In this document: positions 41,685 through 62,698 of the stretch, one piece after another
Layout of the letters: each line of letters starts with the position of its first letter
How positions within the stretch are numbered: the stretch's first letter is position 1
Assembly (NCBI GenBank): GCA_001542995.1
Contig: LFLA01000021.1
Span: 124,001-188,000 of the forward strand
Direction: 5' to 3'
Length of the DNA: 64,000 nt
DNA from: Nitrospina sp. LS_NOB
GTDB taxonomy: Bacteria > Nitrospinota > Nitrospinia > Nitrospinales > VA-1
Program-made: the position numbers and the translations under genes
Notes under the pieces: generated by a model
What the model was told of the DNA's origin: nothing
What the model saw: only the letters and a program-made list of their open reading frames with translations
Databases searched by the model: none

Positions 41685-41724
41685 ATTTTGACGGCAAAGA
41701 GGTTTGATAGGCCATGTTCGTCGG

Positions 41725-42139
41725 CCCCACGCCGAGTGGGCGGAGGACCTCCGCTGGTAATGAACAATCTCTTTATTTTGTGGACGAAGAGTTTTGGTCG
41801 CTTGATGGGCCATTGCTCTCTGGCTCCACGCCGAGTGGGCGGAGGACCTCCGCTGGTAATGAACAATCTCTTTATTTTGTGGACGAAGAGTTTTGGTCGC
41901 TTGATGGGCCATTGCTCTCTGGCTCCACGCCGAGTGGGCGGAGAACCTCCGCTGGTAATGAACAATCTCTTTATTTTGCGGACGAAGAGTTTTGGTCGCT
42001 TGATGGGCCATTGCTCTCTGGCTCCACGCCGAGTGGGCGGAGAACCTCCGCTGGTAATGAACAATCTCTTTATTTTGCGGACGAAGAGTTTTGGTCGCTT
42101 GATGGGCCATTGCTCTCTGGCTCCACGCCGAGTGGGTGG
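41725..42139. repeat. 99-bp tandem array of palindromic elements between rpmH and rnpA
   Basis: Four complete 99-bp units plus the beginning of a fifth: the P palindrome (CCACGCCGAGTGGG) recurs with GCCGAGTGGG starting at 41731, 41830, 41929, 42028 and 42127. Each unit also holds a GCGGAG-GAC/AAC-CTCCGC hairpin and the body GGTAATGAACAATCTCTTT. Units 1-2 share GTGGACG and GGACC; units 3-4 share GCGGACG and GAACC, so the array grew by duplicating pairs. 99 is a multiple of three, so several frames on both strands stay open across it. Confidence 0.95.
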
Positions 42140-42484
42140 ATGAAAAATTTCTCTTTCAAAAAAACCGAACGACTGGCCAAACGGCCCGAGTTTGAAAAGG
42201 TCATGGCGGAAGGGGGGAAAAAACGGGTGGGCAAATTATGCATTATCTTTTCCCTCCCTAACGAATTGGGCAGAAAGAGGCTGGGAATCATCGCCTCGAA
42301 AAAGGTAGGAAACGCGGTGGCCCGCAACCGGGTGAAACGAAGAATTCGAGAAACTTTTCGCCAAATCAAACACCGCATAGAACCCGCTTTGGATATCGTT
42401 GTTATATCAGGGAAGGACATGGTCACGCTTCCCTACCGGGTGATTGAAAAAGAACTTTCAACTGCCCTTCTAACCGAAAGGTGA
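42140..42484 (+). CDS. rnpA: Ribonuclease P protein component
   Basis: The ATG at 42140 gives a 114-residue basic protein MKNFSFKKTERLAKRPEFEKV with the signature KKVGNAVARNRVKRRIRE, the RNA-contacting RNR motif. The frame is open much further upstream only because of the tandem array, whose last palindrome ends seven bases before the start. It assists the catalytic RNA in 5' tRNA maturation. The ribosome binding site would lie in repeat DNA (GGGTGG), so initiation may depend on it. Confidence 0.96.
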   Translation: MKNFSFKKTERLAKRPEFEKVMAEGGKKRVGKLCIIFSLPNELGRKRLGIIASKKVGNAVARNRVKRRIRETFRQIKHRIEPALDIVVISGKDMVTLPYRVIEKELSTALLTER

Positions 42485-47442: not shown

Positions 47443-49254
47443 TTAGACCATGCCGATGGCGGTGTGTTGCATTTGTTGGCGTTGTTCTTCGGTGACTTCG
47501 AGTTGCGGTAGGTGGTTGGAGCCGTATTTATCGATGTAGAGGAAGATGTATTCGCGGACACAGGTTCTTAAGTCCCATTTTGTGTTGTGGTTGCGCTCGA
47601 ACTCATCGAACACATTCAGCGCATCTTGAATGCTGAGTCCACCTTTGGTGGTGAAGTAGTAGTCGAGTGCCAGATCCCATTCCGGATTTTTGTAAAAGGT
47701 GATGCCGTATTTTTCCGGCTCAAACGCGACCGGACTGTATTTACCCAGCACGAATGTCATGAATCCGAGTGAGTGGATGTGGGCTGAGTTTTTCTCGACG
47801 AAGGCTTTACTGTCATCGGCTTCTTTTTCGGTTTCTCCGGGGAAACCGAAGAATCCCATCAAATGATTCCAAATTCCCGCTTCGGACGACATACGAAGAT
47901 TAGTTTCGATGGCATCGAGCTTGGTGGCTTTGTCCATGAGTTTTAGGACTCGCTGGTTGCCGGACTCGTAACCGAAGTGCAGGTACTTGCATCCCGATTC
48001 CGCCACATCTTTCCAGACTTGTTCATCTAATAGGGATTCTTCAAAGCGCATATGCGTGGTCCAGGCGATATCGAGTTTATCGTCGATCAAGCGGCGCGAA
48101 AGTTTCTGGAACAGTGCCGGGGGATAGGACTCATCGGTGAAATGAAAAAACCGGGTGCCGTATTTTTCTTTGAGGTGCTTGATTTCATCGGTGATCTGGT
48201 CGACCTGCTTGGTGCGGAACCCTTCGACGTAACCTTGAAAATGGTCGCAGAATGTGCACCGCCCATAATAACACCCGCGTGTCGCGAGATAGGGCAGGAT
48301 GAGATGCGGCACAAAATATTTTTCCAGCGGTAAACCATCAAAGTCCGGCGGCGGCAACTCGGCCAGATTTTCGGCACAGACTTCTTTGTTCGTGTGAATG
48401 CCGTTCTCGTCTTTATAGATCAAGTTGGGGAGCTGGGAAAAATCGCCTCCCTCTTTCACCGTTTCGGTCAATTTCAGATAGGCCGACTCGCCTTCATAAA
48501 CCACCGCCGTGTCGAACCATTCCCACAGTCTTTGCATTTCCGGCAGGGTGTCGCGGATGCGGGTGATGATGTTTCCGCCCAGAGTGATATGCGTTCCGGG
48601 GAACTCTTCCTTGATCATTTTGCAGAAGGTAAAGGTAGCAATGAGTTGTTTCTGTTGCACCACTGAGATACCGACCATTGCCGGACGCTCGCGTTCCATC
48701 ACCGGACGGATCAGCATGCGATAAACGTCGCGGTAAATATTGATCTGGTCGTCATCGATCGCTTCCAGAATTTCTGAGGACATGAACGGTTTGTAAACGA
48801 TGTCGGTCTCGATGGGTGGAAAACAGATTTGCGCCGGATAATAACCGAGCGAAACCACTGCCATAACCTGATGCAGGCAATTCGTCGCCCACTCCAACTG
48901 GTCGATATCGTAAAACGCTTTGCCGCGCAGGATGCCCTTGGCCCTTTCGACATCCGTGGAAAATTGTTGAAACTGTTCCGGTGTGCAGGTGATGAGCTTT
49001 TGCATCAACTCCTGCTCTTCCTCATCGAGTTTGCCTTCTTTTTCCTTGTCCTGAAGATAGCTGAGTTCGCTGGCAATGCGTTGCGCGACATGTTCCAAAA
49101 ACCGGGAACTGAAAAACAGGTCATACATCTCGACGTTGACATCCAACTGCGAAACGTCGTGACCTGCTGGGCGCAGAACTGAAGCCAGTGATGGCAGGCT
49201 CAAGTAGGGCTCGGAAGGTAACCAGTCAGGGGGAAATATGAGTAATGTTTTCAT
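47443..49254 (-). CDS. B12-binding domain radical SAM protein (copy 1)
   Basis: 603 residues. The N-terminal region (1-300) starts MKTLLIFPPDWLPSEPYLSL and includes a cobalamin-binding-type fold with HITLGGNIITRI and VVYEGE. The radical SAM domain has an expanded cluster motif Cys328-x4-Cys333-x2-Cys336 (GCYYGRCTFC), then FTDESYP, FGYESGNQRVL and MGFFGFPGET. The C-terminal 120 residues are helical. Class B-like enzymes of this kind methylate or rearrange unactivated carbons; the substrate is unknown. The second copy lies 108 bases upstream in the same direction, so the two probably form an operon. Confidence 0.85.
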   Translation of the reverse strand: MKTLLIFPPDWLPSEPYLSLPSLASVLRPAGHDVSQLDVNVEMYDLFFSSRFLEHVAQRIASELSYLQDKEKEGKLDEEEQELMQKLITCTPEQFQQFSTDVERAKGILRGKAFYDIDQLEWATNCLHQVMAVVSLGYYPAQICFPPIETDIVYKPFMSSEILEAIDDDQINIYRDVYRMLIRPVMERERPAMVGISVVQQKQLIATFTFCKMIKEEFPGTHITLGGNIITRIRDTLPEMQRLWEWFDTAVVYEGESAYLKLTETVKEGGDFSQLPNLIYKDENGIHTNKEVCAENLAELPPPDFDGLPLEKYFVPHLILPYLATRGCYYGRCTFCDHFQGYVEGFRTKQVDQITDEIKHLKEKYGTRFFHFTDESYPPALFQKLSRRLIDDKLDIAWTTHMRFEESLLDEQVWKDVAESGCKYLHFGYESGNQRVLKLMDKATKLDAIETNLRMSSEAGIWNHLMGFFGFPGETEKEADDSKAFVEKNSAHIHSLGFMTFVLGKYSPVAFEPEKYGITFYKNPEWDLALDYYFTTKGGLSIQDALNVFDEFERNHNTKWDLRTCVREYIFLYIDKYGSNHLPQLEVTEEQRQQMQHTAIGMV

Positions 49255-49308
49255 TTTTTAAGCGCTGTCTTAGTTCATTCAAAGCTTTTCTTAAAGGCAA
49301 TTCGCTGT

Positions 49309-49327
49309 CCCTGTTTTAAAAACAGGG
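49309..49327. promoter_or_regulatory. Short perfect palindrome between the radical SAM genes
   Basis: CCCTGTTTT-A-AAAACAGGG is a perfect 19-base inverted repeat in the 108-base gap between the two paralogues. It may be an attenuator or processing hairpin; no U-tract of terminator length follows. Confidence 0.4.
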
Positions 49328-49362
49328 CCGCTCATGGCCAAACTTAATTTTTCAAGGCACAT

Positions 49363-51165
49363 TTAGGCCCGGCAAAGGATCTTCTCCTCTTCTTCCGCCG
49401 GCGGTTGTTTACCACTCAGCGACTCTTTGCCAAACTTGTCGAGATACAGCAGAAAATGTTCGCGCGGCAACGTTCCCCACAATTGCAGGGACTTGAACAA
49501 CTCTTCCGCCATGCTGATGCATTCGCTGTTCATTTCCACGGCCTCATCGCGGGACATCCCCTTTTTAGCAACAAAATCCAGGTTCATGGCAATGTTTCTA
49601 TCTGGGTCTTCGATAATTCGTTCGATGGAAAACTTTTCCGGATACTGGTAGCAACTTGAATCCCGGTTCAGCAGGAACACTCCGGGGCCGAATGAATGGA
49701 TGGATTCGATGTTGTCGCGCAGAAAGTCGATGGTCTCCTGAGCCTCGGGCCGGGTTTCGGTGGGGAACCCGAAAAACAGGAACGAATGGTTCCAGATACC
49801 CGCCTTATGGCTCTTCATCAAAACGTCCTGTTCCACTTCCTTGGTGGTTCCTTTATCGATGAGCGCCAGCACCCGGTCGTTGGCGCTTTCCAATCCGAAC
49901 ATCAGGAAAATGAATCCCGCCTTTTTCATTTTCGCGAACAACTGATCGTCCATGACCTTTTCAAATTTCAGCAATGCCAGGGAGCAGATTTCCACCCCGC
50001 GTTCGATCATCAATTCCGAAACATCGTTGAGGGCGTGCGGCGAAACCGCTTCATCGGAAAAAGTGAAATATTTTGTGTTGTATTTTTTCATCAACGCTTC
50101 CAGTTCATCAACCATGGCATGGGTTTTCTGTTTGCCGTAGCGGTGTCCATAAACAAAACTATGCGTGCAGAAGGTGCACTTGCCCCAGTAACAACCCCGG
50201 CTCTGTAAAACGGGGATGATTGGGTATGGCGACAAGTAGCTATGCATCGGCAGGCCGTCGAAGGTCGGGCCGGGAATATCTTCAAACCTCAGTTCCACAC
50301 GTTCCTTGTTCTGCACCACTTCCCGTCCTTCCAGATGGATCAGGTTGGGCACGGTCGATAACGCATCCCCGGCCTTGAGCGCGGTGAGCAATCTATGCAG
50401 GGGTTCTTCGCCTTCGAAGGTCACGATACTATGGCAAAAATCATCAAAAAATTCCGGATGACCGATCAACTGACCGGCGTTGACGCTGAATATAGGACCA
50501 CCTAGAGTGATATGAAGATGCGGAAATTTTTCCTTGAGCAACCTGGCTAAAGTTAGCCCGGGAATGATCTGCGAGATGCCGACAATAGAGATGCCGACCA
50601 CGTCATAGTCTGACCAGTTTTCACCGGGAATCAAAATGCTCTCATATAAATGAATGAAGGGATTAGTCTCTTTGTCGCGGCTGGCTTCATGCGCTCTATG
50701 GGTGGACTCTTCAGCGCGAGTGCCGCTTTCAAAAGTCGACAGACTGAAAACCGCCGGTGCGTGCGCGTCGGAAACCAGTTTTAGAGCGGATTTGATCACC
50801 ATATCCGCTTGCTGATACGAGGGAAAATCGAAAAACCGTTCCGGAGTTCTGAGAACCGACTTTGCCTCCTCGACGCCGGCAATGATGCGGTCGGAAAATT
50901 TTAACCCCGTCGCCAAAACATCGAGATGAGATTTTTCTTTGATCGACAGAGAACTCTGGTTTTTGAGCGATTCCATTCGCTGAGCCATCAGGTTTTCAGC
51001 GTTTTGCAAAAGGGGTGCCGACAAAAAATGCTCGTAGGACGCTATATTAAAATCTCTTTGTTCCACCTCCCAACCTTTGGCGCGTAAATAGGCCGTCAGA
51101 TAGGGCGTGCTCAAATACGGCTGCGTGGGGTACCACTGTGCCGGAAAAATCAACAAGGTTTTCAT
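49363..51165 (-). CDS. B12-binding domain radical SAM protein (copy 2)
   Basis: 600 residues, clearly paralogous to the downstream gene: the same start (MKTLLIFPAQWYPTQPYLST), HITLGGPIFSV in the cobalamin-type domain, and Cys325-x4-Cys330-x2-Cys333 (GCYWGKCTFC). FSDEAVSPHALND, FGLESANDRVL and FFGFPTETRPE then follow. Sequence divergence between the two copies is considerable outside the core, so they probably act on different substrates or as a hetero-pair. No precursor peptide gene is seen around them. ATG start; the upstream 270 bases carry a promoter for the opposite strand. Confidence 0.85.
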   Translation of the reverse strand: MKTLLIFPAQWYPTQPYLSTPYLTAYLRAKGWEVEQRDFNIASYEHFLSAPLLQNAENLMAQRMESLKNQSSLSIKEKSHLDVLATGLKFSDRIIAGVEEAKSVLRTPERFFDFPSYQQADMVIKSALKLVSDAHAPAVFSLSTFESGTRAEESTHRAHEASRDKETNPFIHLYESILIPGENWSDYDVVGISIVGISQIIPGLTLARLLKEKFPHLHITLGGPIFSVNAGQLIGHPEFFDDFCHSIVTFEGEEPLHRLLTALKAGDALSTVPNLIHLEGREVVQNKERVELRFEDIPGPTFDGLPMHSYLSPYPIIPVLQSRGCYWGKCTFCTHSFVYGHRYGKQKTHAMVDELEALMKKYNTKYFTFSDEAVSPHALNDVSELMIERGVEICSLALLKFEKVMDDQLFAKMKKAGFIFLMFGLESANDRVLALIDKGTTKEVEQDVLMKSHKAGIWNHSFLFFGFPTETRPEAQETIDFLRDNIESIHSFGPGVFLLNRDSSCYQYPEKFSIERIIEDPDRNIAMNLDFVAKKGMSRDEAVEMNSECISMAEELFKSLQLWGTLPREHFLLYLDKFGKESLSGKQPPAEEEEKILCRA

Positions 51166-54450: not shown

Positions 54451-54563
54451 AAGCTAATGAAGGGATAACACAAGGGCAAATAGCAATAGCTCCTTAAGCC
54501 GCTAACACGATTTGAATGCAAATAAGGGTTATTGCGCGTCAGCCCTCCGCTCAGGAGCTGTTC

Positions 54564-54874
54564 ATGAAAAAACCGGAAAAAAATTCATCGCCCATATTGA
54601 TCCAGACCTTCGCGACCTGATACCCGGTTATCTGCAAAACCGCCAGAAAGATATAAAAGCTATTAACGAAGCGCTCAAGACCTCTGATTTTGGTAAAATC
54701 CGCGTACTGGGCCACTCCATGGGAGGAACCGGAGGCGGCTACGGTTTCATGCCGATCAGCAAAATCGGCGAAACTAGCGAAGAAGCTGCAAGAATAAAAA
54801 ACCCCGACCAGATTAAAGACGGGCTTAACAAACTTTCAGACTTTCTTAAACGGGTAACTCTGGTTTATGATTGA
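54564..54874 (+). CDS. Hpt (histidine phosphotransfer) domain protein, frameshifted at an A7 tract
   Basis: The domain reads HIDPDLRDLIPGYLQNRQKDI, a long helix, then RVLGHSMGGTGGGYGF with the phospho-accepting His, and FLKRVTLVYD at the end: a standalone phosphotransfer domain. In the family the segment is usually HxLKG; here the Lys is replaced (HSMGG). The best start is ATG 54564 (AGGAG eight bases upstream) but that frame stops after 18 codons. One more A in the seven-A run at 54577-54583 would join it to the Hpt frame, which is open from 54512. Error, loss or programmed slippage cannot be told apart. Confidence 0.6.
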
Positions 54875-54932: not shown

Positions 54933-57260
54933 GTGTTGAAATTTTTCAAGGGACTCGCAGTTTTTTTTCTGGCCTTTTCAGGGGTCTGTTCCGTTTTCGC
55001 CCAGGAAAAGGACTGGACTTTTTGGCAGGAGCGTTTTCTGCAATCGCTTTCTCCCTCTAAAGCATTTCAGGAGCCGCACATCAAAGAGGTTCGTGTCACC
55101 GCAGCGTTGCCGGACTACCCATGGGTCAAGGTTTCCGGATACCGGAACCGGCCGATGGAAAGGTGCATCACCTGCCACGATGGCATCGCCAGTATCAGCC
55201 CTTCCCATCCCCCCGAGTTCGGCTGTTCCGTCTGCCACGGCGGCGAACCTCAATCGGTGGACAAGGATCAGGCGCACGCGACATTGATTTATGATCCCGA
55301 GGCAGGGACCGGGAAGCGCAATCCTTCCAGCCTGAGTGTGGTGGAACAATCCTGCGGACAATTATATTGCCATGCGGGTCACACCGATGAAGATAGAAAC
55401 CATGTCGACCGTGTTAAAAAATCCATGATGAACACGATGGCGGGTGTGATCTCGGGTTTGAGATACCAATGGGCGGGGCAGAGCCGGAAAACCGCACGTT
55501 ATGGCACGCTTTCCATTACCGATTCCGATGGGTCCGTTCCCAAAAACCAGGGCGCTTTGGAAAAACTGGAACGGCTGCCATTCTTTTCTTCCACAACAAT
55601 TCCCCAACCTGTTTTGAAAAAAGAGATGTTGGTTCCTGTATCCCGGCACCCGGCAGACCGTCTGCTGCGGAAAAAATGTTTCCAATGCCATCTCGATTCG
55701 CCACCGGCCAAAGGCCAGTACCGTTCGCAGGGTTGTGCCGCCTGTCATTTTGAATATTCTTCCAGCGGACTCTATGAAGGCAACGATCCGACGATCTCGC
55801 GCGCCGAACCGGGCCACGCCCGGTTCCATAAAATCCGCGCCATTCCCTCACGCGCCACCTGCGTCCAGTGCCATCGGGCATTTGAATTGCAAACCCTGGG
55901 CACCAAACCCCACGAAGAACCGGATGTCTTGGACGAAATCAAAGCGGAAGAGGACATCACCCCTGTTGACAATTCGATCAATCCTGTTGAAACACCGTCA
56001 ACCGTCCTGGATGCTGAGACAATAAAGGATGCAATGGTCGAAATACTATCAACCGTCCTCAACCCTAAAAAAATAGAAGATGCAACGGTCGAGGACGACC
56101 CCGTTGAAGAATTTTCCTTATTTGCCGGAAAAGGCCAGGTCCTAAAAGATGTGCACACGGCCAAGGGAATGGACTGCACCGATTGCCACACTCAACTTGA
56201 TATCATGGGGGATGGGAATCTTTATTCCAAACAACATGAAGCGGTAGAAATTCGCTGCGAGACCTGCCATGGAGACAGCCTGGCTTATCCCTCCATTGCA
56301 CAAATCACCGAGCCCGGGGATGCGGCGATTCGGGTCAGCAAATATTATAAAGGCGGTTCGAACAAGGTGAAGGACTGGATGGCAGTTTCGGCACACAGCC
56401 GGAAGATGACCAATGTAAAAGTTCAGGATGGACGTATGGTCGCCATTGGCAAGCAGAGCGGCAAGGTTCATGAAATTCCTCTGGTGAAGGATTTTCTCGA
56501 TGCCCACGCCATTCCCCAACACCAGTCCCGTCTGGAATGTTCAGCTTGCCACGCGCGCTGGGTAGTGCAGTGTCCAGGATGCCATCAAGCCATCACGGGC
56601 AGTCGGGCCCAAGTGCCTATGCCCACATCCCATTCTCTGAATATCGGGGAACCCGCGTTGATGATCGGGCCTCGGGGCAAGGTGGCCCCCATGCTGACCC
56701 AGCCGGAAAGACACCTGACCGTTCTTGATGAGAGAGAAAATCTGATTCCCGTTCTGGGACGAATGGGAAAGAAACAGGGCTATTATCGGCAGTGGGCTTT
56801 TACCAATCCGCATGGCACCTCCGGCTCGAATCTGGCTTATGCGCTGAATCCGCATTCCATACGAAAACAGGCCCGCTCTTGCACCAGTTGCCATTTGTCT
56901 CCTGAAACTTTAGGATTAGGGGAAGGCGATCTCAAGATAGGAAAAAATTCCACTGGGAAAAATGATTTTGTCGATCCCCTGAACCGTACGGATAAGGTAC
57001 TGAAGGCATCACAGTTTGATCCGCAAGCCAAAGTATCAATGCGGGGAGAACCCCTTGCAGGAACCCATCAGCCAAAAGCCCGGGCCTTTAACCAGAAAGA
57101 AATAATCCGGATTTTAAGAGTTGGCAATTGCATACCCTGCCACGACCGGTATGATGATCCGGTCTATCAGGATATCAACCAAAGCTATGCCTTTGCACGT
57201 ACAATGGACCACCGTCGCTTACGGGAAAAAATATTGAGTTTGAGGCGATCCCCTGAATGA
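54933..57260 (+). CDS. Dodecahaem cytochrome c (11 CXXCH plus one CX4CH)
   Basis: A 775-residue exported protein (GTG start, signal peptide to about 24, VFAQ). Twelve haem sites lie in order: CITCH, CSVCH, CGQLYCH (a CX4CH type), CFQCH, CAACH, CVQCH, CTDCH, CETCH, CSACH, CPGCH, CTSCH and CIPCH. Between sites 6 and 7 is an acidic linker of about 75 residues. All haems would be covalently attached in the periplasm and the spacing suggests a long electron wire or a catalytic multihaem protein. It overlaps the next gene by four bases (ATGA) and shares collinear blocks with it, so the two arose by duplication. Electron partners unknown. Confidence 0.88.
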   Translation: MLKFFKGLAVFFLAFSGVCSVFAQEKDWTFWQERFLQSLSPSKAFQEPHIKEVRVTAALPDYPWVKVSGYRNRPMERCITCHDGIASISPSHPPEFGCSVCHGGEPQSVDKDQAHATLIYDPEAGTGKRNPSSLSVVEQSCGQLYCHAGHTDEDRNHVDRVKKSMMNTMAGVISGLRYQWAGQSRKTARYGTLSITDSDGSVPKNQGALEKLERLPFFSSTTIPQPVLKKEMLVPVSRHPADRLLRKKCFQCHLDSPPAKGQYRSQGCAACHFEYSSSGLYEGNDPTISRAEPGHARFHKIRAIPSRATCVQCHRAFELQTLGTKPHEEPDVLDEIKAEEDITPVDNSINPVETPSTVLDAETIKDAMVEILSTVLNPKKIEDATVEDDPVEEFSLFAGKGQVLKDVHTAKGMDCTDCHTQLDIMGDGNLYSKQHEAVEIRCETCHGDSLAYPSIAQITEPGDAAIRVSKYYKGGSNKVKDWMAVSAHSRKMTNVKVQDGRMVAIGKQSGKVHEIPLVKDFLDAHAIPQHQSRLECSACHARWVVQCPGCHQAITGSRAQVPMPTSHSLNIGEPALMIGPRGKVAPMLTQPERHLTVLDERENLIPVLGRMGKKQGYYRQWAFTNPHGTSGSNLAYALNPHSIRKQARSCTSCHLSPETLGLGEGDLKIGKNSTGKNDFVDPLNRTDKVLKASQFDPQAKVSMRGEPLAGTHQPKARAFNQKEIIRILRVGNCIPCHDRYDDPVYQDINQSYAFARTMDHRRLREKILSLRRSPE

Positions 57261-59995
57261 ACCGTTTCTTTAAAATTTCAGCCCTGCTGGTTTTGGCAGG
57301 AAGTTTTTGGTCCTTTCCTTTTCTGTCTTCAGGGCAGGATTTAGAAATCAAAAATCCATTCGAGTTTCCAGGCAGTGATGAACGGGGAAAGCCCCCTCCA
57401 TCCCCTGCACCTGAGAAAAATCCGTCAGGACTACTCGATCTTTTCATTCAACCTGACGGCGATGCCCAGCCTGAATCCGAAGAAATTTTTGAATCGGATG
57501 TTGGCAGTGGCAGTACGTCCGCTATTAAATCCAAGAGTATGGTTGAGATTCCGAAATCGGTCTCGAAAAAAGAGTTTGACGCTGCCGATTTCAACGATCC
57601 TTTCTACCGGGTTCGAGGCTTTCAGGGAAATTCAGAAAAAATCTTGCAACCGGGAACCACTTTGGATGGAGTCCAGTTTCAGAACTACGGAGAGTCCAGA
57701 AAATTCGTTGAGCGGTTTTATCGCGAATCAGGATTCTCTATAGATGCAGTTTTCGGTAAAATTAAATACTTGGAAAAAAAAGGCGGGTGCTACACCTGCC
57801 ATCAGGGCATCGAAGAACTCAGCCCCAACCACAAGATGGCCTGCGTTCGGTGCCATGGCGGAAACCGTCGGGCCAAGTCCCTGCCAAAAGCTCATAAAGG
57901 ACTGGTGTCAAATCCCTCTTCCATGGAGAACGCTCCCAGGTTTTGCGGCAAATGCCATGAGAGCCATGTCAATAAAATCGGCCGCTCGGTGATGGCCACC
58001 GCCAAACGCATGATCAACATCACACGTTTTGGATGGGGTGCACAACCTGCCAATGAACTTCCCTATTCCCTGTATCCCGGAGAACAGGAGCAACTCTACC
58101 CTCCAACGGGAGCCGGGCACGCGGTAGACGGGTTTCTCAAAACCAAATGCCTGAGATGTCATCTCGATGCGCCCGGCCCGCACCGGCCAGGGGATTACCG
58201 TGCAACCGGATGCTCGGCCTGCCATATGGTCTACACCAATGACGGCATTTCTTTATCGCACGACCGGGCTATTCAGGCTCTACAGGAAAAAGAGAAAATA
58301 CAAAACCGGTTTGCGCGAAAATTCGCCAGCAAATCTCTGAGCAATCGCCGGGGCTACCCCTTGCTACATAAATTCACCACCGCCATACCCAGCGTCCAAT
58401 GCGAACATTGCCATAACAATAATGGCGTGGGGCAAGAATTTGAAGGCTTGTTTGCCAAACCTGCCCGACCTCAAGCCGCTCCAAAATCCATCAACGATGA
58501 ACAACCGGTTTTGTACGGAAAGGAACATAAGTTCCTGGTTCCCGACATTCACCGTGAAAAGGGCATGCATTGCATCGACTGTCACATTGGCGATGAAATG
58601 AAACCGGAAATCGAACCGGAAGGCCTGCGTTCGGCAGTTCAAATACGCTGTACTGATTGCCACGGCACCCGCTCGAAACTACCCGAAGGATTGCTGTTGA
58701 TTGAATCGGATCCCAGAACCAAACAATTGTTAAAGAGAGCTGATTTGAACCCCAACCTGAAAAGGAAAATCCGCACGGGAGATACGGTGCTGGTGAATTC
58801 CAGCTTCTCGCCCATGACACACATCAAGCAGGAGAAGGACAAATGGATTTTGATTTCCAAAGTAACGGGAAAGAAACACACTATTCCTCTTCTAAAAAAT
58901 ATTGCGCCGCCTATCGCCCACCAGATTCCAAAACATATGGAGGAGGTAGAGTGTTCGGCCTGCCATGCCAGATGGTCGGCAGCAGAATGGGGAATGCATC
59001 TCATTCGCGAAAACACATTCGCCCCGGAAAAGTGGAAGAGCTGGAACCTGGCCGACCCGGACCTGCAGGAGCAGCTCTCAACAAATGTATCTGGACAACC
59101 GGGAATGATCAACTGGCTCACTGCAAAATCCCAACCTGACAAAATAGAAGGTGACCGTTTGCAGGGATACTGGTGGTCCGTGTTTACTGAGACCGGATGG
59201 TCGGACCTGATATTGGGGAAAAACGATCGCGGGAAATATTCAATATTAAAACCTCGCTACCAGTATTTCATCACCGACCAAACCAGTCCGCTGGGTCTTC
59301 CGACCAAACGTGCCGAACCGCCATTGACTCTGGATGGAGGAGCAGGTCTGATCTGGACCACCTATTCCCCGCATACGATTCGCAAGACCGTCCGCAGTTG
59401 TGAGTCCTGCCATCAAAACGAATTGTCCGCCGGGTTGGGCGACCCCCTACGGCAGAACATTAAAAACGCAACTTCGTTTTTTGATGAATTGCGATTCAAC
59501 AACCAGGTTCTGCCGCGGTTCCAACTCAAGCAGGGGGTGACGCAAAATGGGGAACCCCTGCAAACGGCTTTTCCCGGCGATGAGATCCGTTTTCTAAACG
59601 CGGAAGAAATCTCTGCCTTGCAGGAAACGACAGACCGCTATCGTTCGTTCCGCTTCCTGAACTTACGCGAATTGAGTTTCCCGCGCCTGCTTTCGCGGCA
59701 GGAATTTCCTTATGACGCCCGACACCGTGCGCAGGAAAATAGTATGGGTCCACCGCCCTTAAAGGATGACCTTTATTATAATGTAGAAAAAAACCAGTTC
59801 GTGAAAGTCGAACCCAAAATTCCTGCCACCACAATCCCACAGGAAGCCGCTCAGCAGGAACCCGGCTTTCGGGAGCCCGGAACCCCGGAACCCGCCCAGC
59901 AAAAGAAAATTATAGAGTTTTTATACGATCTCTTCCAGGACGACGAAACACTCGATAAGGGGAATGACCAGACACCCCTTGAACCTGGACCATGA
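57257..59995 (+). CDS. Decahaem cytochrome c, paralogue of the upstream gene
   Basis: 912 residues with a signal peptide (MNRFFKISALLVLAGSFW...SSGQ). Ten CXXCH sites: CYTCH, CVRCH, CGKCH, CLRCH, CSACH, CEHCH, CIDCH, CTDCH, CSACH, CESCH. Shared blocks with the upstream protein include ECSACHARW and SPHTIRK/NPHSIRK, CHLDAP/CHLDSP, and the (R)KSM..T/(G)RSVMAT helix. It lacks the CPGCH and CIPCH sites of the partner and has an N-terminal extension of about 150 acidic/Pro-rich residues and a Pro/Glu-rich tail. Start overlaps the previous stop (ATGA) and its end overlaps the diheme gene, so the four genes are translated as a unit. Confidence 0.88.
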   Translation: MNRFFKISALLVLAGSFWSFPFLSSGQDLEIKNPFEFPGSDERGKPPPSPAPEKNPSGLLDLFIQPDGDAQPESEEIFESDVGSGSTSAIKSKSMVEIPKSVSKKEFDAADFNDPFYRVRGFQGNSEKILQPGTTLDGVQFQNYGESRKFVERFYRESGFSIDAVFGKIKYLEKKGGCYTCHQGIEELSPNHKMACVRCHGGNRRAKSLPKAHKGLVSNPSSMENAPRFCGKCHESHVNKIGRSVMATAKRMINITRFGWGAQPANELPYSLYPGEQEQLYPPTGAGHAVDGFLKTKCLRCHLDAPGPHRPGDYRATGCSACHMVYTNDGISLSHDRAIQALQEKEKIQNRFARKFASKSLSNRRGYPLLHKFTTAIPSVQCEHCHNNNGVGQEFEGLFAKPARPQAAPKSINDEQPVLYGKEHKFLVPDIHREKGMHCIDCHIGDEMKPEIEPEGLRSAVQIRCTDCHGTRSKLPEGLLLIESDPRTKQLLKRADLNPNLKRKIRTGDTVLVNSSFSPMTHIKQEKDKWILISKVTGKKHTIPLLKNIAPPIAHQIPKHMEEVECSACHARWSAAEWGMHLIRENTFAPEKWKSWNLADPDLQEQLSTNVSGQPGMINWLTAKSQPDKIEGDRLQGYWWSVFTETGWSDLILGKNDRGKYSILKPRYQYFITDQTSPLGLPTKRAEPPLTLDGGAGLIWTTYSPHTIRKTVRSCESCHQNELSAGLGDPLRQNIKNATSFFDELRFNNQVLPRFQLKQGVTQNGEPLQTAFPGDEIRFLNAEEISALQETTDRYRSFRFLNLRELSFPRLLSRQEFPYDARHRAQENSMGPPPLKDDLYYNVEKNQFVKVEPKIPATTIPQEAAQQEPGFREPGTPEPAQQKKIIEFLYDLFQDDETLDKGNDQTPLEPGP

Positions 59996-60651
59996 AAACG
60001 CTCACAATTATTATATTCAGCGGATTTTTTTCTCTCTCCTCAACGCTGGCTAGCGCAGGGCTCCTGGAAGATAAAAATTGCGGTTCCTGTCACCGGTTGA
60101 ACGCTGAAGAGACCGAAAAAAGTTTTACCGGGCCGAACCTGCATTATGCCGGCAACAAATTCCAACCGAAATGGTTGAGCGAGTTTTTGAAAAACCCTGA
60201 GATCATCCGGCCTGGCGGATTCATCAACAACCCTGGATTTTTAAAAGGCGATTCTGAAAGCCAGCCGCCGCATCCTTCTTTTCCTGAAGAAGAGGCCAAT
60301 GCCATGGCGGCAGAGCTAATGGGTTTGAAAATTACCAAGCAAACGTCGGTCACTACCGAGCCTTTGTCGAAGGGGCAACGCGCCAAAATCAAATATCAGT
60401 TTGAGCGAACATTCAGCTGCATCTCCTGCCACCAAAGTTTGAATTTGGCTGGGAAAGTCCGTGGCGGCATATCCGGTCCATCGCTGGTCAACGCTGGAAA
60501 CCGACTGCAGGCCGACTGGGTCGCCGACTGGCTGAGCACACCGGAAACTTACACGAGAAAGGGGCGAATGCCGCACTACAAAATGGATCCCGTCACCCTG
60601 ATCCAGTTCACCCGGTTTCTTATGATGCTAAAGAAAGAAAATATAAAATAA
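59992..60651 (+). CDS. Diheme cytochrome c, two-domain
   Basis: 219 residues with signal peptide (ending ASAG). Two class I-like cytochrome domains: CGSCHRL (about 31) and CISCHQS (about 143). Each is followed by GPxLxxAGNxxQxxWxxxxLxxP, here GPNLHYAGNKFQPKWLSEFL and GPSLVNAGNRLQADWVADWL. The second domain has RMPHYKM, a plausible sixth ligand Met; the first has a less clear one. A soluble electron carrier or dehydrogenase partner for the multihaem proteins. Starts four bases inside the previous gene. Confidence 0.9.
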   Translation: MKTLTIIIFSGFFSLSSTLASAGLLEDKNCGSCHRLNAEETEKSFTGPNLHYAGNKFQPKWLSEFLKNPEIIRPGGFINNPGFLKGDSESQPPHPSFPEEEANAMAAELMGLKITKQTSVTTEPLSKGQRAKIKYQFERTFSCISCHQSLNLAGKVRGGISGPSLVNAGNRLQADWVADWLSTPETYTRKGRMPHYKMDPVTLIQFTRFLMMLKKENIK

Positions 60652-60655
60652 GGCC

Positions 60656-61111
60656 ATGACAATAAATCAAAAAAATTCACTCGCCGGAATAATGATCCTG
60701 ACGCTATGGGTCACCGGCTGCGGACAAAATGAACAGACCGCCCCTGCCATCAAACCTCCCACACAGCAGGAGGTCGGGAAAACCATTTCGCAAACTCCAC
60801 AACCTGTGCTGGCTCAGGTCACGGAAAAAACCCGGCAGACTTATCAATGGTATTGCGCCCAATGCCATGGCATGAAAGGAAAGGGCGACGGCATCAACGC
60901 TAAATTCCTCACGGTCCCACCCCGCAACCACACCAAAGCCGAATATCTCGAAACCCGGACCGATGAACAACTTTTTGAAGCCATCAAGTTCGGCGGACTT
61001 TCTGTAGGCCGGGCTCCCTGTATGCCAGCCTGGGGCCACACTCTTGATGAGGATACTATCCACTCTCTGGTCCAATACATCCGCGAGTTGTGCCAGTGCC
61101 AGGCCCTCTAG
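60656..61111 (+). CDS. Lipoprotein monohaem cytochrome c
   Basis: 151 residues. The N-terminus has a lipobox-like WVTGC, so the protein is probably lipid-anchored, followed by a Pro/Gln-rich linker and one cytochrome c domain: WYCAQCHGMKGKGDGINAK, LTVPPRNHTKAEYL and the axial Met in PCMPAWGHTLDED. Last gene of the four-gene operon, four bases after the stop of the diheme gene. The linker and anchor fit a shuttle between a membrane complex and the multihaem proteins. Confidence 0.9.
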   Translation: MTINQKNSLAGIMILTLWVTGCGQNEQTAPAIKPPTQQEVGKTISQTPQPVLAQVTEKTRQTYQWYCAQCHGMKGKGDGINAKFLTVPPRNHTKAEYLETRTDEQLFEAIKFGGLSVGRAPCMPAWGHTLDEDTIHSLVQYIRELCQCQAL

Positions 61112-61336
61112 CCCCTTGGCAGGGGAGGCAACTGGCAATATCTCTATCCTGCGGACATACGCTCTCTCGGCCCAACGGGTCATTGCTCATTGCCTCCGGC
61201 GGCTCGCCGGTTGGCCCCACGCCGAGTGGACGGAGTACCTCCGCTGGTAAATGGGTCTGACTTTAAATTGCGTATGAGTGTGCTTGGCTTAATGGCTTTC
61301 TCCTAGTTGGCCCCACGCCGAGTGGTTTGCTATAAT
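61112..61336. repeat. Palindromic modules and extended -10 before the DUF1015 gene
   Basis: Two right-end palindromes (TGGCCCCACGCCGAGTGG at 61212-61229 and 61308-61325), an H4 hairpin (CCGGCGGCTCGCCGG near 61196-61210), an H2 variant at about 61230-61243 and the body GGCAATATCTCTATCCTGCGG. TGCTATAAT at 61328-61336 is an extended -10 box immediately after the last palindrome and may be the promoter of the DUF1015 gene. Confidence 0.7.
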
Positions 61337-61402
61337 CATTTTCTAAGATAAAAGGAAGCCTCTCCTTACCCGTACAACTTATAAAAAAAGTGAGACCCCA
61401 TA

Positions 61403-62698
61403 ATGATTGAAGTAAAACCGTTCCATGGCCTGCTGTACAACACCAAGGTCACCGGACCTCTCATAGAGGTCACCGCTCCCCCTTATGATGTGATTTCGCC
61501 CGCTCTTCAGGAGTCTCTGTACCAGAAAAATCCGCATAATGTCGTGCGCCTGATCTTAGGCAAGGAGTTTTCCACCGACTCCGAAATGGACAACCGCTAT
61601 AGCCGTTCCGCAGACACATTCCGACAATGGCTGGCAGAGGAGGTCCTTGTTCGCGATTCGCAACCGGGATTTTATTTATATAGTCAAGAGTATGAATTCG
61701 AGGGAGAAAAATTTTGCCGCACGGGTTTTTTCGCACGCGTCAAAACGGAAGCATTCAGCGAAGGCAATATCCTTCCGCATGAGTTCACGCTTTCCAAGGC
61801 CAAGACTGACCGCACCCGTTTGCTCAATGCCTGCCACGCCAATTTTAGTCCAATTTTCGGGCTGTATTCCGACCCCGAAGGTAAAATCGATGCTCTACTC
61901 AATGACGAAGGCAATCTGGAACCTTTGTCTGTGATTGATGACGGCAGTGTTGTGCATCGCATCTGGCGCTTGACCAATTCTGCCACCTGCCGGAAACTCT
62001 CTGACCAGATTGGTGACAAAAAAATATATATCGCCGATGGGCACCACCGTTATGAAACCGCTCTGGCTTTCGCAGAAGCTAATCAAGGCAAAGTAGAAGA
62101 TTGCGCCCATGTCATGATGTTCCTGACCAATATGGATTCGGACTCCATGTCGATCTTTCCCATTCATCGAGTGGTGAAAAGTCCGGAACCGTTTGACCGC
62201 AAGTCGTTCCTTAAAAAAGCCGGAAAATATTTTGACATCACCCCCTGGTCTGGCCCGCTAAATGGAGCAGAAGTAAAATCCAAACTACACGAACTGGGGA
62301 ACGCGCAAATCACTTTCTGCGCTTATATGGGGAAAGACCACACCTTCATTTTGAAAGTTAAAGACCCTAAAAACGTTATACCCCTTTTGGACCACGACGA
62401 ACCCGAGGACATGCAGGCTCTTGATGTCGCTCAACTCCACGCCCTTCTTTTTAGACACATTCTCAAGATCGATACCCGGGAGAAGACCGGCCAACAATAT
62501 GTTTCCTACAAGGTGAATTCTGAGGAAGCGATGGGAATGGTAGATAGCGGCGAATACAATGTGGCATTTTTCATGAACCCCACTCTCATAGAACACGTGC
62601 GACGGTTGGCGGAAAAAGGCGTGCGCCTGCCGCAGAAAGCCACCTTTTTCTATCCCAAACTTTTATCGGGACTGGTCATCAATAAATTTGGACCATGA
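61403..62698 (+). CDS. DUF1015 family protein
   Basis: 431 residues with the family's strong blocks: VKPFHGLLYN near the start, APPYDVISP, NVVRLILGKE, ILPHEFTLSKAKTDRTRLL, SPIFGLYSD, YIADGHHRYETALAF and the C-terminal FYPKLLSGLVIN. A conserved cytosolic protein of unknown biochemical function, sometimes linked to serine or nucleotide metabolism by neighbourhood. No such neighbour here. Its last codons were partly duplicated before engB. Confidence 0.9.
   Translation: MIEVKPFHGLLYNTKVTGPLIEVTAPPYDVISPALQESLYQKNPHNVVRLILGKEFSTDSEMDNRYSRSADTFRQWLAEEVLVRDSQPGFYLYSQEYEFEGEKFCRTGFFARVKTEAFSEGNILPHEFTLSKAKTDRTRLLNACHANFSPIFGLYSDPEGKIDALLNDEGNLEPLSVIDDGSVVHRIWRLTNSATCRKLSDQIGDKKIYIADGHHRYETALAFAEANQGKVEDCAHVMMFLTNMDSDSMSIFPIHRVVKSPEPFDRKSFLKKAGKYFDITPWSGPLNGAEVKSKLHELGNAQITFCAYMGKDHTFILKVKDPKNVIPLLDHDEPEDMQALDVAQLHALLFRHILKIDTREKTGQQYVSYKVNSEEAMGMVDSGEYNVAFFMNPTLIEHVRRLAEKGVRLPQKATFFYPKLLSGLVINKFGP

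Follow-up and report, generated by a model that had tools for sequence, protein, structure and literature searches.

The two large multihaem cytochromes c (A and B) encoded by a four-gene operon of Nitrospina sp. LS_NOB are, on the evidence of profile comparisons, homologous to ExtM of Geobacter sulfurreducens, with A colinear with it, and we tentatively favour the reading that they form, in the Nitrospina order, a periplasmic module for electron transfer that derives from ExtM, is attached to a pair of smaller cytochromes (C and D) and feeds a high-potential chain. Positions refer to the window, that is, the whole stretch of 64,000 nucleotides that was analysed, and the genes are listed in Table 1.

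Table 1. The cytochrome operon and its upstream neighbour in the window.
Feature	Position	Strand	Length (aa)	Description
HPt gene	54512..54874	+		Stand-alone histidine phosphotransfer (HPt) domain; directly upstream of A; start codon uncertain
Gene A	54933..57260	+	775	Secreted dodecahaem cytochrome c, ExtM homologue
Gene B	57257..59995	+	912	Secreted decahaem cytochrome c, paralogue of A
Gene C	59992..60651	+	219	Dihaem cytochrome c, two class-I-like domains
Gene D	60656..61111	+	151	Lipid-anchored monohaem cytochrome c

The original prediction had described a translationally coupled operon of four genes with 12, 10, 2 and 1 haem sites, and the coordinates, the motif counts and the shuffling controls all agree with that description (25 sites in the operon as a whole), as do the junctions, which consist of an ATGA overlap at both A/B and B/C and a gap of 4 bp at C/D. 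The 12 sites of A comprise 11 CXXCH motifs and one CX4CH motif (CGQLYCH, residues 141-147). When the proteins were shuffled 2000 times with their composition kept, CXXCH arose by chance at a mean of 0.03 per shuffle for A and 0.01 for B, and never more than once, compared with the 11 and 10 motifs observed. Read by eye, the N-termini of A, B and C carry Sec-type signal sequences; A and B have no conserved lipobox, and D, with a VTGC lipobox in which the cysteine (Cys22) is invariant, is the only lipoprotein of the operon.

The named sequences closest to the locus come from metagenome-assembled genomes (MAGs) assigned to Nitrospina, Nitrospinaceae or Nitrospinota and, because the window's genome encodes a long NxrA-like protein, we regard the host as a Nitrospinota nitrite oxidiser. 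Homologues of A were present in 56 of 77 Nitrospinota genomes, every one of them in the window's order, and a scan of the genome collection with B returned Nitrospinota-type loci only, two of which stand under other record names. The survey of gene neighbourhoods that had been suggested for related genomes found the same arrangement across the order: the succession A-B-C-D, its close spacing and its 12, 10, 2 and 1 haem sites recur in nearly all intact loci of the genera sampled, and the loci that depart from it are mostly on truncated or frameshifted contigs. Among 35 orthologues of A and 32 of B, the cysteines and histidines of the haem motifs vary little or not at all, and many non-haem residues of A are also conserved. 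A strict dependence of the operon on nitrite oxidation was rejected, as one genome (G030) has NxrA without A-B and two others (G002 and G003) encode a long NxrA-like protein but no A.

The only constant neighbour of the operon is the HPt gene, which precedes A in 33 of 37 loci, usually at a distance of 50-90 bp. The Pfam Hpt model scores 33.2 bits in one orthologue (L120) against a cut-off of 24.6, and the window's copy, at 19.9, falls below it; the HPt protein is a possible regulator, which might place the operon under phosphorelay control. The operon is preceded, in most genera, by NHL and SnoaL-like genes and followed by DUF1015-EngB. Genes for glycogen enzymes, a sulfite-oxidase-like protein and a TonB-receptor-like protein were rejected as partners, because these flanking genes vary between genera. 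Beside the NHL neighbour, at 47443-51165, are encoded, one next to the other, two radical SAM proteins of the cobalamin type (~600 aa each), and similar-sized large ORFs occupy the same place in related loci. Repeated words of CCCCACGCCGAGTGG-type were also seen downstream of D (61111-61420) and elsewhere in the window, at 41714-42200; the rnpA-like ORF at 41714 has, in translation, about five repeats of a GSTPSGRRTSAGNEQSLYF... unit.

It had been thought that the two large proteins belonged to no named family, and this has to be withdrawn: against the NCBIfam model for ExtM (NF040943), A scores 266 bits (E 5e-79) and B 170 bits. Both lie below the curated cut-off of 800 bits, as does the best orthologue (295 bits), so neither protein is filed as ExtM. 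In orthologues such as those of G027 and G016, one continuous match covers positions 16-586 of the 599 in the ExtM profile; the window's A matches the profile as four separate stretches. Within the window's genome, the ExtM and Cytochrom_c3_2 models find A and B only. The two are paralogues (hhalign E 6e-78 over 552 columns), and the A sequences and the B sequences each form one clade, with support of 100/100 for each. B is without the site of haem 10 of A, at which QCPGCH is replaced by EWGMH, and without the site of haem 12. A solitary ExtM-like protein from a sister family (G071; 591 aa, 12 haems, 271 bits), encoded at L100:2034-3809 on a contig that carries no B, C or D genes, has the sites of both of these haems, which fits a loss in B. 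We propose that an ExtM-like cytochrome with 12 haems was duplicated to give A and B; B has since lost two haem sites.

ExtM (GSU2935) belongs to the extHIJKLMNOPQS cluster of G. sulfurreducens, in which the 10-haem ExtN comes after the 12-haem ExtM (PMC5877670). A has its 12 haems and its colinearity in common with ExtM, and the 12-then-10 order of ExtM and ExtN parallels that of A and B, although B scores 75 bits to ExtN compared with 170 to ExtM. The partners differ: none of the porin (ExtI), rhodanese (ExtH), Rieske (ExtO) and cytochrome b (ExtP) genes of the ext cluster has a recurrent counterpart, and no catalytic-subunit gene recurs beside the operon, in ~40 loci, whereas the ExtS-like tetrahaem lipoprotein of that cluster is absent and the class I cytochromes C and D are found instead. 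The original prediction held that a confident full-length match of both large proteins to a characterised family with the same partner genes would make this a known system; the colinear homology to ExtM is of the first kind, but the partner genes are not those of Geobacter. Part of the ExtM-like haem core is also common to a multihaem protein of ~1330 aa found on Sphingobium plasmids and in G009 (locus L101), but its size and neighbours differ, and the G009 copy has LVIVD repeats. That locus (G009:C26:20000-39999) is a second multihaem cluster, encoding a 770 aa WD40 protein with six haem motifs, a four-motif cytochrome and the LVIVD protein itself (1326 aa, 10 motifs, ExtM-like core).

Multihaem clusters with up to 12 haem sites, of unclear role, were reported from Nitrospinaceae MAGs in 2025 (PMC11995701); one of these, OFTM387, is our locus L041, which holds the A-D operon, and the cluster reported there is very probably the same operon. 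The authors proposed an extracellular electron conduit for such clusters; in this case A and/or B would reach the outer membrane, and electrons would pass between them and Fe/Mn minerals or partner cells by way of an unlinked or unrecognised porin. The relative ExtM has been reported in the outer and cytoplasmic membranes as well as the periplasm of Geobacter (PMC5877670). We nevertheless consider such a conduit unlikely for this operon, as no beta-barrel gene recurs next to it in ~40 loci, a search of the window's genome for MtrB and PioB found neither family, and A and B have Sec-type signals without a conserved lipobox, leaving the small monohaem D as the sole lipoprotein. No outer-membrane beta-barrel partner like that of the Mtr/Pcc porin-cytochrome conduits was found in these searches and, at 10 bits against a cut-off of 209, B falls short of the OmcA/MtrC decahaem family (TIGR03507).

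Pfam and NCBIfam searches gave no family match to NrfA, HAO or OTR. Sequence searches of the PDB with A and B gave weak cytochrome matches only, and the solved structures closest to the profile of A, all of them weak matches, include NrfA-type reductases and the pentahaem subunit of alternative complex III. To the latter complex A is weakly similar through ActA (24.8 bits) and D through the monohaem ActE (33.6 bits), but there are no ActB or ActC genes beside the operon, which also has far more haems. The AlphaFold2 models were poor, with a mean pLDDT of 47 for A (35-orthologue alignment) and 50 for B (32 orthologues), and unusable for haem distances; Foldseek with the B model (mean pLDDT 50) gave no match at E<=0.001.

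The weak similarity of A to NrfA and to octahaem nitrite reductase bears on whether one haem of A or B reduces nitrite, NO, hydroxylamine, sulfite or selenite/tellurite, with C and D supplying the electrons. Such a multihaem oxidoreductase would agree with the position of a C-D pair beside a NirK-like protein in one locus (L116), with the cluster from which ExtM comes, where loss of extI lowers selenite and tellurite reduction (PMC5877670), and with the shortfall in A, where 11 free histidines are strongly conserved for 12 haems. The selenite effect, however, was shown for the porin ExtI and not for ExtM; CXXC followed by a residue other than histidine is absent from A and B, the CXXCK active-site haem of the NrfA type is absent from the proteins of the operon, and the operon shows no haem whose motif can be recognised as catalytic. 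The histidines outside the haem motifs that are conserved in at least 85% of orthologues number 11 for the 12 haems of A and 14 for the 10 of B, which would roughly suffice to give nearly all of these haems two histidine ligands, so that open catalytic haems are not required. We therefore think a reductase improbable. Of the original suggestion of a periplasm-spanning conduit or new oxidoreductase, periplasmic electron transfer is retained as the best reading, whereas a conduit across the envelope lacks its porin and an oxidoreductase its catalytic motif; the accompanying statement that no quinol oxidase and no known nitrogen, sulfur or metal reductase subunit is encoded with the operon was borne out.

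The C-D pair has an origin separate from that of A-B. In C, His94 (domain 1) and Met193 (domain 2) are invariant and are candidate distal ligands, as is the invariant Met123 of D, which has in addition the invariant cysteines Cys122, Cys146 and Cys148, the C-terminal CXC among them being common to the sister family. The C profile also picked up homologues in sister families that lack A-B as a pair, and in five genomes of one of these (f9; G071-G075, loci L114, L115, L117, L122 and L123) the C-D pair follows a gene for an EB_dh-type cytochrome. L114 holds the whole operon, which is of the bd-like oxidase/alternative NxrC type and comprises a bd-like oxidase (PF01654), a dihaem and a membrane monohaem cytochrome, a CBS protein, the EB_dh cytochrome, C and D. 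The adjacent dihaem and small monohaem genes stand in the same order there as in the window (C ~31% and D ~43% identical), but that operon is without ExtM-like genes, whereas here C-D has left the bd-like operon and is joined to A-B. The corresponding operon of the window's genome, at C5:274-280 kb, has no C-D after it, and resembles the bd-like oxidase/alternative NxrC gene set for nitrite oxidation described by Luecker et al. 2013 (PMC3578206).

Two lineages provide what appear to be natural deletions. In G030, a 97% complete genome of the window's genus with NxrA present, C and D are followed by DUF1015-EngB and there is no match to A or B genome-wide; in G006, from another family, the order is NHL, SnoaL, HPt, C, D, and A and B are missing from their place between HPt and C. 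To judge from these absences, both from metagenome assemblies, A-B was probably lost at the locus while C-D was kept, and C-D therefore probably works without A-B. In a further genome (G057) the A-B half and the C-D half lie 0.5 Mb apart. The window's genome also encodes, at L134:1561-2562 (G000:C8), a trihaem protein of 333 aa that resembles a fusion of C and D; its neighbours are other monohaem cytochromes and a two-component system, and ORFs like it, of 336-503 aa, occur across the order.

For the periplasmic electron-transfer module that we favour, we infer the ligands, the redox order, the direction of flow, the physical contact between the proteins and the oxidase as acceptor. A and B, with 22 c-haems that are mostly probably bis-histidine and with no catalytic site, would act as a low-potential wire and/or an electron store, and on leaving them the electrons would pass to C, first its His/His and then its His/Met domain, and to D, a His/Met cytochrome anchored in the membrane. 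This order is proposed because bis-histidine haems tend to have a lower potential than His/Met class I haems. From C and D the electrons would enter the respiratory chain on its high-potential side, where the likeliest acceptor is the bd-like oxidase with the NXR-type cytochrome chain, since C-D is encoded with that oxidase in sister families; this most likely link draws on the gene neighbourhood of another family, at the identities given above for C and D. That A-B is instead an electron capacitor or redox buffer of the periplasm, with no donor dedicated to it, which tunes the electron supply at low or fluctuating O2, seems doubtful, as the 22 haems in two secreted proteins, the want of a partner enzyme, the expendability in two lineages and the adjacent HPt gene, which suggests signal-dependent regulation, are opposed by the fact that every haem site of A, along with many of its non-haem residues, is strictly conserved, which suggests specific contacts. 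It is similarly doubtful, in our opinion, that the operon is an undescribed respiratory entry route, by which A-B would accept electrons of low potential from a donor that is not nitrite and lies outside the cell or in the periplasm, and pass them through C-D to the bd-like oxidase.

Clusters of this type had already been remarked on in 2025 (PMC11995701), but our literature search found no earlier statement that A and B are related to ExtM or are duplicates, that B has lost haems, that the operon is conserved throughout the order, that C-D has a history of its own or that A-B is deleted in some lineages; a search for expression of the A-D genes in Nitrospina found nothing. Bacteria of the Nitrospina type are the principal marine nitrite oxidisers known, and the parts consulted of two accounts of their respiratory chain (PMC3578206 and PMC10839748) assign no role to this 25-haem operon, though it is kept across the order. 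The ties to ExtM on the one side, and of C-D to the bd-like oxidase on the other, give it a testable place in the electron-transport chain and bear on the question of what the bd-like complex does, and the two natural deletions of A-B offer ready comparisons. If the reading as an entry route were true, it would mean a second chemolithotrophic or an oxygen-scavenging mode for Nitrospina-type bacteria.
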